From positions 1-32,932 of the forward strand of contig DASZFO010000222.1 in assembly GCA_035939775.1 (NCBI GenBank): 32,932 bases of DNA, given 5' to 3'. This stretch comes from Pirellulales bacterium (GTDB taxonomy: Bacteria > Planctomycetota > Planctomycetia > Pirellulales > DATAWG01). Under the pieces are notes generated by a model that had not been told where the DNA came from, did not search any database, and saw only the letters and a list, made by a program, of their open reading frames with translations. Shown in pieces: positions 5,958 to 28,661 of this stretch. Within the stretch, counting starts at the first letter, position 1. Each line of letters begins with the position of its first letter. The translations under genes and the position numbers were made by a program.

Positions 5958-6392
5958 TTTTGGGGACTGGGGGCTAGGGGCTGGGGACTGGGAAGGCGGC
6001 GGCCGCGTCGCGGTCGCGTCATTCGAGGCCCGAGCCCCGAATCCCGATCCCCGCTTCAGTTCTCCCCATTTTTATGAAATGCCGCGACGTTCGCCAGTCG
6101 CGGGAAGAAAAATTGAGTTCCGCCCCGAACAAGTTGGCGGAAAGTTTGGCCATTCACCGCAATTCGTCCCGCGCGTCCGCCTTCCGGCGGTCGTACTTCG
6201 GTTCGCAAGCGAACCGGCCAACGAACGATCTTCCTTTTACCGACCGCCGGCTGGCCACTGCCGACTTCTGCCCCGTTCCGCGCTGGCGAGCGGTTCGGCA
6301 AACGGGTATGATGCCCGATGACGGGGGAAGCGGAAATCGCCGGCGGCAAGGAACACGTTGCTGGGATTTAACCATTTATGGAGCAGACGAAC
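5958..6392. other. Divergent intergenic region filled with short repeats
   Basis: This 435-base spacer between divergent genes has no convincing gene. From 5962 to 5992 it holds a low-complexity GGGGACTGGGGGCTAGGGGC run. Positions 6200-6215 are an inverted copy of the 7-bp-stem palindrome ggttcgcaagcgaacc found at 623-638, and its flanks (about 6191-6227) also match, so the two are copies of one dispersed element. A long open frame across 6074-6736 is in the wrong frame for the following membrane protein and looks like GC-rich read-through. No clear promoter was identified. Confidence 0.55.
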
Positions 6393-6971: not shown

Positions 6972-6975
6972 AATC

Positions 6976-7041
6976 GTTTAACCCGGAGCCAACGGCGACG
7001 GTGGCAGGTAAGTGGCCGTCGCCGTTGGCTCCGGGTTAAAC
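6976..7041. repeat. Perfect 26-bp inverted repeat (long hairpin) between membrane-protein gene and thiS
   Basis: The left arm is 6976-7001 and the right arm 7016-7041. They are exact reverse complements over 26 bases (gtttaacccggagcc... against ...ggctccgggttaaac), with a 14-base loop at 7002-7015. It begins 5 bases after the upstream stop codon and ends 21 bases before the thiS ATG. No T-tract follows, so it is not a standard intrinsic terminator. It could act as an RNA-stabilising or attenuating hairpin, or be a REP-like mobile palindrome. Confidence 0.85.
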
Positions 7042-7062
7042 AATGCGAGACCTATAGACGAC

Positions 7063-23761: not shown

Positions 23762-23875
23762 GAGCCTATCCGAGAACCGCCGGGGACTGTCCCCCTTTTG
23801 CGCGGGCACCATCGCCGCGATGGTCGGAGCAAAACGGGGACTGTCCCCTTTGCACCGCGGTTCTCGGATAGGCTC
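23762..23875. repeat. Element A: 114-bp nested palindromic element in the MFS/apt divergent region
   Basis: The outer arms are perfect 19-bp inverted repeats: gagcctatccgagaaccgc (23762-23780) against 23857-23875. Inside are two same-direction copies of the self-complementary 13-mer ggggactgtcccc (23782-23794 and 23836-23848), 54 bases apart. Between them is a third hairpin, ccatcg/cgatgg (23809-23823). The whole element is an MITE-like cruciform with no coding capacity. It ends 18 bases before the apt ATG (23894) and stays open in frame on the apt strand. Confidence 0.75.
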
Positions 23876-24440: not shown

Positions 24441-25034
24441 ATGGGGCGCTACGTCATCCTGCGACACGATTGCGAAAACGGCCGGGGACTGTCCCCTTTT
24501 GTGTCCGCCGTGACGGATTCGGCGGTCGCGGAAAAAAAGGGGACTGTCCCCCTCTCCGCAGGCCGTTTGCGTACGTCGGGTGTGCATTGGGATCTGATGC
24601 TCGAATCGGGCGCGGCGCTCCGCACTTGGGCGCTTGCCGCCGAGCCAGCGTCGGACATTCTGATCGCGGCGGAGCAACTGCCCGACCATCGACTGGCCTA
24701 TCTCGACTACGAAGGCCCAATCTCCGGCGACCGCGGCACCGTCATCCGCTGGGACGCCGGGCACTTCGAACTCTTGAGCGAGACGCCTCTAGTCGAGCCT
24801 CGAAGCTGCTTTGACCAGTTGGGTGCCATGCCCACGGCTCGGCGTGGGCATGAGCCGCACGAAGGCATGGCCACTCAGAGCAGTGGCCATGGCACCCGTC
24901 CCTTCTCGATTGAAGCTCCACTAGCACTCCGAATTGCGCTTACCGGCGATCGCCTGCGCGGCGAAGCAACCCTAGCGCGATCGTCCGCGGCGAGCAACTC
25001 ATGGCAATTCGTTTTCCATCCGCGACAAACATAA
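24441..25034 (+). CDS. LigD-type 3'-phosphoesterase-like protein carrying two in-frame repeat insertions
   Basis: The 197-residue protein is recognisable as the polymerase-ligase N-terminal (LigD phosphoesterase-like) domain. RYVILRHD and VHWDLMLESGAALRTWAL carry the His residues of the fold. PDHRLAYLDYEGPISGDRGT comes next, and ALTGDRLRGEATL with the final WQFVFHP closes the barrel. In LigD, this domain trims 3'-phosphate or ribonucleotide ends in non-homologous end joining. Here the first two motifs are split by 36 unrelated residues (12-47), and a second foreign stretch (~120-158) lies before the last motif. Both are translations of palindromic repeats B and C, and both preserve the frame. 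Removing them restores a contiguous small family member. It is either a working protein with tolerated surface loops or a decaying gene that has not yet lost its frame. Confidence 0.8.
   Translation: MGRYVILRHDCENGRGLSPFVSAVTDSAVAEKKGTVPLSAGRLRTSGVHWDLMLESGAALRTWALAAEPASDILIAAEQLPDHRLAYLDYEGPISGDRGTVIRWDAGHFELLSETPLVEPRSCFDQLGAMPTARRGHEPHEGMATQSSGHGTRPFSIEAPLALRIALTGDRLRGEATLARSSAASNSWQFVFHPRQT
24472..24572. repeat. Element B: palindromic element inserted in the phosphoesterase gene, resembling element A
   Basis: It carries two copies of ggggactgtcccc (24484-24496 and 24539-24551) 55 bases apart, the same core and spacing as element A. The central hairpin ccgccg/cggcgg and outer arms aaacggcc (24476-24483)/ggccgttt (24561-24568) differ in sequence from element A. 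It is coding here, giving residues about 12-47 of the protein. Confidence 0.7.
24821..24897. repeat. Element C: 77-bp GGGTGCCATG palindromic element inside the phosphoesterase gene
   Basis: The ends are perfect 10-bp inverted repeats: gggtgccatg (24821-24830) and catggcaccc (24888-24897). Two inner 10-bp hairpins are also perfect: catgcccacg/cgtgggcatg (24827-24836/24843-24852, 6-base loop) and catggccact/agtggccatg (24866-24875/24882-24891, 6-base loop). It encodes residues ~127-153 in frame with no stop. The sequence differs from element B. Confidence 0.75.
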
Positions 25035-27592: not shown

Positions 27593-27670
27593 GTGTCGTT
27601 CAGGCGTCGTCGCCTGACAATCCCGGGCGACTATCGACGTGCGACTGTCAGGCGAGGACGCCTGACCTAC
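27591..27670. repeat. Inverted pair of CAGGCGTCGTCGCCTGAC-type palindromic repeats
   Basis: caggcgtcgtcgcctgac (27601-27618) is nearly self-complementary. An opposite-sense copy, gtcaggcgaggacgcctgac, lies at 27647-27666, followed by CTAC, the reverse of the GTAGG that begins the other copies. A third copy lies at 28346-28369. The first copy's GTAGGT flank contains the stop codon of the SRPBCC gene. The pair forms a large stem between convergent genes and could act as a bidirectional barrier. Confidence 0.7.
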
Positions 27671-28240: not shown

Positions 28241-28661
28241 AGCATCGTCCCTCCCAAGATTTCTCTTCGAGCGTGAGCCCGGAACCAATCCAGGCAGACA
28301 ACCACTGTTGATCGTATCTTCGCCCGAGGCGATGTCAACCAACAGGTAGGTCAGGCGTCGTCGCCTGACGACTCAGAGCGGTAGGGTGCGTCGAGTCCGC
28401 GCTGACGCACCGGAACCGGCGGTGATAGTGGGCTTCCGAGCCTTGATGTACGCTACTGCGACTGCAGGGGAGATAATTCGGGGACTGCGCCGATTGACGC
28501 AGATTTCAAGAAACGAGCCGTGCGCTCGGATATCACTCAAACAAACCCGCGAAAATCGGTGAAATCTGCGGATCATTTACGGACTTGTTCGGCGCGCTGA
28601 GGGGTCTCAAAATGACGTTTCAGAATCGGTGAATCGGTATCGCGACGAATGAGCTTGTCCA
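28241..28661. repeat. Intergenic region with three repeat families upstream of the TOTE gene
   Basis: There is no gene in this ~420-base spacer. It holds a CAGGCG repeat (28346-28369), a perfect ggtgcgtc/gacgcacc hairpin (28385-28392/28404-28411, related to 17715-17743), and an 11-bp inverted repeat cgcagatttca/tgaaatctgcg (28498-28508/28560-28570). CCGATT and AATCGG flank the latter (28490-28495, 28554-28559). Together the repeats may mark the edge of an acquired segment. No clear promoter for the downstream gene was found. Confidence 0.6.

Follow-up and report, generated by a model that had tools for sequence, protein, structure and literature searches.

The window, by which we mean the whole stretch of 32,932 nucleotides analysed here, is a single contig (C222) of a Pirellulales genome of 6.39 Mb in 384 contigs, and at its heart for our purposes is a short gene, stop-free over 197 amino acids, in which two unrelated palindromic repeats, elements B and C, lie in frame (Table 1). 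The relatives returned by our searches are planctomycetes, several of which bear the name Pirellulales. A further copy of element B sits just upstream, and because the listed first codons of the neighbouring MFS-type open reading frame are read from that copy, the true start of that gene is probably further in. The window holds other repeats too: another palindromic family (GTCAGGCG...CGCCTGAC) occurs twice, at 27595-27670 and 28346-28380, and there are more inverted repeats, 29-40 nt long and 93-97% complementary, at 607-646 / 6192-6231 and at 6973-7044.

Table 1. Features at and near the interrupted gene, in positions of the window
Feature	Position	Strand	Evidence
Intergenic B element, complete with its two outer inverted arms; MFS-type gene on one side, apt-like gene on the other (upstream of the latter)	23762..23875	+	
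LigD-type 3'-phosphoesterase gene (PF13298), 197 aa, both inserts inside	24441..25034	+	Pfam, Foldseek, invariant residues
Element B, 33 codons; a class-55 palindromic element represented by its inner part, outer arms missing; reads (C)ENGRGLSPFVSAVTDSAVAEKKGTVPLSAGRLR	24473..24571	+	Repeat family, absence from homologues, hairpin z=-5.0
Two GGGGACTGTCCCC cores of element B, paired at a spacing of 55	24484..24551	+	
Net insertion due to element C: 132 nt, 44 codons (LVEPRSCFDQLGAMPTARRGHEPHEGMATQSSGHGTRPFSIEAP)	24789..24920	+	Repeat copies; absence from homologues
CTAG, left border of C, possible target duplication	24789..24792	+	
75-nt core of C, with a REPIN-like layout of two different, mutually inverted GGTGCCATG hairpins	24822..24896	+	32 genome copies
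CTAG, right border of C, possible target duplication	24921..24924	+	

The initial annotation described this as a LigD-type phosphoesterase gene carrying two different palindromic repeats without loss of frame, and that description has stood up well, since the frame runs open through both repeats, the protein matches PF13298 (LigD_N) and the repeats recur genome-wide. The domain match has an E-value of 3.8e-12, and of 2.1e-13 for a shortened version without the two stretches; the nearest solved structures are LigD phosphoesterase domains, with a Foldseek match to that of P. aeruginosa LigD at E=4e-9. In an alignment with 37 homologues the protein retains 15 of 15 family-invariant residues, including H9, H49, D51 and H83, and the active-site residues have thus not been lost. 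From the domain match and these catalytic residues we assign the product as a LigD-type 3'-phosphoesterase, and it would be expected to have kept its enzyme activity. Could it nevertheless be a decaying pseudogene, in which constraint was relaxed, the protein being perhaps dispensable, and two in-frame insertions persisted by chance? We think this unlikely. It is true that two insertions lie within one short gene, that the codon signal is weak at the C terminus and that the same genome encodes a full-length LigD with an intact PF13298 phosphoesterase domain of its own, but the codon signal is strong in the central core, there is no stop, every invariant residue is kept and a stand-alone homologue is present in 316 of 396 genomes of the order. 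Decay at this locus would, moreover, leave unexplained the in-frame copies in nadE, hemH and other genes that we describe below.

The borders of both inserts can be drawn from the homologues, none of the 37 of which carries either stretch. Residues 15-39 and most of residues 116-159 of the window protein have no or almost no counterpart in the alignment, and the distance between H9 and H49 is 39 residues, as against 5 or 6 in most homologues; taking out the 33 residues of B brings it to 6, as in 10 of the 37 (18 have 5). The distance between G107 and G169 is likewise 61 residues, and without the 44 residues of C it becomes 17, the value found in 28 of the 37. The insert-free forms therefore join precisely, which the initial annotation had proposed to check, and the lengths first proposed (36 residues for B, about 39 for C) are corrected to net values of 99 nt or 33 aa and 132 nt or 44 aa. 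The notion that these are ordinary conserved parts of a phosphoesterase subfamily has a vanishingly small chance of being right, given that the corresponding positions are unoccupied in nearly all of the homologues and that both stretches recur elsewhere as DNA repeats on both strands.

An AlphaFold2 model of the window protein places insert B between the strands at 2-10 and 48-56 and insert C between those at 99-116 and 161-169, with a pLDDT of about 95 for most of the core and of about 42-70 for the insert blocks, so that both are predicted to occupy low-confidence loops between the strands of a confident core. It is because both insertions are multiples of three and fall in loops between strands that the gene stays open and the elements would be read as loops. 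At the nucleotide level both fold into hairpins better than all of 200 shuffles (z of -5.0 for B and -4.7 for C). The window copy of B has neither outer arms nor a target duplication; with the arms missing, either it has been trimmed or it predates C.

Element B belongs to a large family. Its core, GGGGACWGTCCCC, occurs at 385 sites in this genome (0 for a reversed control pattern), at 23 sites in the sole other genome of the same family, and at 0-47 sites in 295 other genomes of the order, most of which have none. Complete copies are bounded by inverted ends such as GAGCCTATCC and GAACGCCTAA, and 21 of 55 such copies are flanked by identical 3-bp sequences, most often TTA or TAA, against 6.5 expected from shuffling and with 0 of 2000 shuffles reaching as high a count; element B makes a 3-bp target duplication. 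Its copies fall into length classes, one of 99 or 117 nt, giving a net 102 or 120 nt with the duplication and so multiples of three, and another of 100 or 118 nt (net 103 or 121). Several observations lie to one side of this. A third repeat (CTCTCCC...GGGAGAGGG) is nested in some copies of B (L193:14921-15027, L241:662-744, L183:8328-8410 and L203:13871-13954), the nested pair still being in frame in the first two; in another genome of the order (G120:C1:512843-513578) the core forms a dense cluster, at intervals of 22-113 bases, in contrast to its dispersal in the present genome; and a distant planctomycete family (G515, G639, G665) carries another kind of element, one that pairs GGGGACTGTCCCC with GGGGACAGTCCCC.

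How often is element B found inside genes? Our survey covered 1.89 Mb (about 30% of the genome) and 157 of the 385 strict sites (41%), and coding calls were made by a codon-usage score of our own devising, applied with fixed padding and no gene finder to both flanks of 103 copies. By this measure 15 of the 103 are in frame and open, and one more lies in the full-length LigD gene. Where both flanks are coding on one strand (n=23), the phase is kept across the element in 20 and shifted in 3, and of the 20 phase-keeping copies 15 are open and 5 contain a stop. Most telling is the comparison of length classes: among copies with a spacing that points to a net length divisible by three, 13 of 45 are in frame and open, compared with 2 of 58 among all others (Fisher P=0.0004). 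In-frame hits had guided the choice of some contigs, and the comparison was therefore repeated without them, giving 10 of 38 against 2 of 54 (P=0.003). It is mainly this contrast that supports a filter on coding insertions, and the frame-compatible subfamily is probably over-represented in genes because selection removed insertions that broke the frame. The same contrast bears on a quite different idea, namely that the elements are cut out of the RNA, or that ribosomes skip them in the manner of mitochondrial bypass elements, the protein being made without them. Strong hairpins in both transcripts might conceivably be used for skipping, yet frame and stops would then be irrelevant, whereas the in-frame copies are open and nearly confined to the frame-preserving class, and neither transcript has an Rfam match above the gathering score (there are three weak hits to hairpin microRNAs). 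We regard removal or skipping as highly improbable.

The genes that carry B in frame have little in common. They include those for ferrochelatase, BioA, PolX, NAD synthetase, an ABC ATPase, UbiD and KdpA, together with an FGE-like protein, mannosyltransferase-like proteins and histidine kinases, and an earlier survey, with element borders set by arm alignment, added an HD-domain protein. For the first seven of these, the alignment with solved homologues covers both flanks of B and is interrupted at B itself; ferrochelatase, with a nearly intact copy, is the strongest single case. In the full-length DNA ligase D gene (L231:1041-3941, minus strand) the element lies in the linker between ligase and polymerase and is read in the same frame as in the window. 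The copy in the UbiD gene (L223:8643-8735) ends in a short in-frame tandem run (GEKGPGEKGPGEKGTVPF). Overall, element B is inserted in frame in at least 15 other genes for unrelated, everyday enzymes, and these insertions are probably read as protein loops. It had been suggested that in-frame survival might reflect either tolerated surface loops or a host-gene preference: the former agrees with the homologue joins, the in-frame copies elsewhere and the modelled loop positions, while the latter finds no support because the hosts of B are functionally unrelated and spread across the genome.

These hosts also allow two further explanations to be weighed. Were short repeats to have joined unrelated contigs inside genes, an assembly as fragmented as this one, with elements as repetitive as these, is where one would look for it; in every case examined, however, a single gene continues across the element, with one homologue aligning to both flanks, and an assembly artefact seems to us exceedingly improbable. 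The other is recruitment, with the added segments giving their host proteins a useful new property. The segments do sit in functional genes, and several copies have no outer arms, as expected if they are old, but the host genes share nothing, most of them receive closely similar peptides, model confidence for the segments is low and tolerance is sufficient to account for them, all of which makes recruitment very unlikely.

Element C is a smaller family, with 32 copies of its core in the genome and 0 of the reversed control pattern. It is typically 128 nt plus CTAG, a net 132 nt, and its inner hairpins are enclosed in longer inverted ends. Identical 4-bp flanks are seen in 5 of 19 copies against 3.0 on shuffling (P=0.08), so the CTAG could be a duplication or could be part of the element ends. 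The initial annotation had proposed a search for in-frame coding copies of both elements elsewhere in the genome; B has many, but for C, among about 44 copies we find, besides that in the window, one that is probably in frame (L228) and two weak candidates (L230, L237). Coding copies of C are rare, and the two families thus differ in how often they are found in genes.

Neither family led us to a mobiliser. The genome has four DDE_Tnp_1 hits and four Y1_Tnp genes, and no transposase bounded by a matching pair of ends turned up, either within the sampled 30% of the genome or around the four DDE_Tnp_1 hits, so that none of these four is supported as a parent insertion sequence. Mobilisation by a RAYT was rejected as well, none of the four Y1_Tnp loci being flanked by cores of B or C, and a 680-bp pair of B-like ends on L203, briefly attractive as a parent element, proved to be ordinary genes. 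By eye, neither a GTAG nor a CGTC tag could be made out.

With a probability that we put at about 0.88, two different non-autonomous, palindromic, MITE-like elements have been inserted independently into one phosphoesterase gene, have preserved its frame and are read as loop segments of its product. The best reading overall is that these are selfish elements tolerated as disordered loops, a counterpart in the Planctomycetota of the Rickettsia palindromic elements. Insertion would depend on a transposase provided in trans; the gene would survive where the new sequence keeps the frame, brings in no stop and lies in a loop, and the surviving element would then be translated as a hydrophilic, probably disordered, segment. 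Other insertions would be lost from genes, and intergenic copies alone would remain. One may go further and imagine a selfish family in which length plus target duplication has become fixed at a multiple of three and both strands are open, so that it spreads within genes as well as between them and coding compatibility is a trait of the element itself, beyond host selection alone; this is a tentative extension to which we would give rather low odds. Whichever is the case, a second example in a large-genome planctomycete, beyond Rickettsia, suggests that the process is general. The two length classes of B, one frame-preserving and the other not, form a natural control by which selection on coding insertions can be measured directly, and near-identical inserted peptides in many host proteins offer a test of the extra loop that an enzyme will bear.

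How do these elements compare with known systems? Our search of the open-licence literature returned no planctomycete precedent, absence there being weak evidence, and no occurrence of four B and C core strings. The available parts of a paper on Coxiella MITEs (PMC5896051) and of one on GTAG/CGTC repeats that names Planctomycetes (PMC3733652) describe no such planctomycete case. Inverted repeats within protein-coding genes are also a feature of nematomorph mitochondria, in which the coding palindromes are perfect and both arms encode protein sequence (PMC6649704), whereas B and C are dispersed mobile elements common to unrelated genes. The inner part of C, with its two inverted GGTGCCATG hairpins, and the four Y1_Tnp genes in the genome recall REPs and REPINs with their RAYTs, but the Y1_Tnp genes lack flanking B or C cores, C is set within longer inverted ends and B has its target duplication. 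A target duplication is not expected of RAYT insertion, and on the evidence here B is not a RAYT-linked REP.

By the features tested, both B and C are MITE-like. With bacterial MITEs such as QMITE1/2 of Coxiella, ERIC and Correia/NEMIS they share short length, terminal inverted repeats, high copy number and the want of a transposase gene, as well as, for B, target duplication. For such MITEs, occasional in-frame fusions are reported (PMC5896051), while here in-frame insertions in the interior of conserved enzymes make up a substantial share of copies and no parent insertion sequence was found. The closest likeness is with the Rickettsia palindromic elements, several families of 100-150 nt that lie in frame in unrelated conserved genes and are read as protein segments (Ogata et al. 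2000, 2002; described in PMC10969869 and PMC3733652). A 2024 review that makes no mention of planctomycetes calls such a high in-frame frequency of palindromic elements unusual to Rickettsia (PMC10969869). There are also differences: the phylum is another one, the host genome is large and GC-rich, and B has a visible 3-bp target duplication and coding copies that track length class, neither of which we found described for the Rickettsia elements in the papers accessible to us. Nevertheless, B and C are palindromic repeats, B occurs in frame in several unrelated conserved protein genes and, in the AlphaFold2 model of the window protein, the host fold appears to tolerate both inserts. The resemblance that the initial annotation drew to the Rickettsia elements is thus strengthened by the precise homologue joins, the many in-frame copies of B and the loop positions, and, likened by features and not by sequence, and with no claim of family membership, B and C may well work as those elements do.
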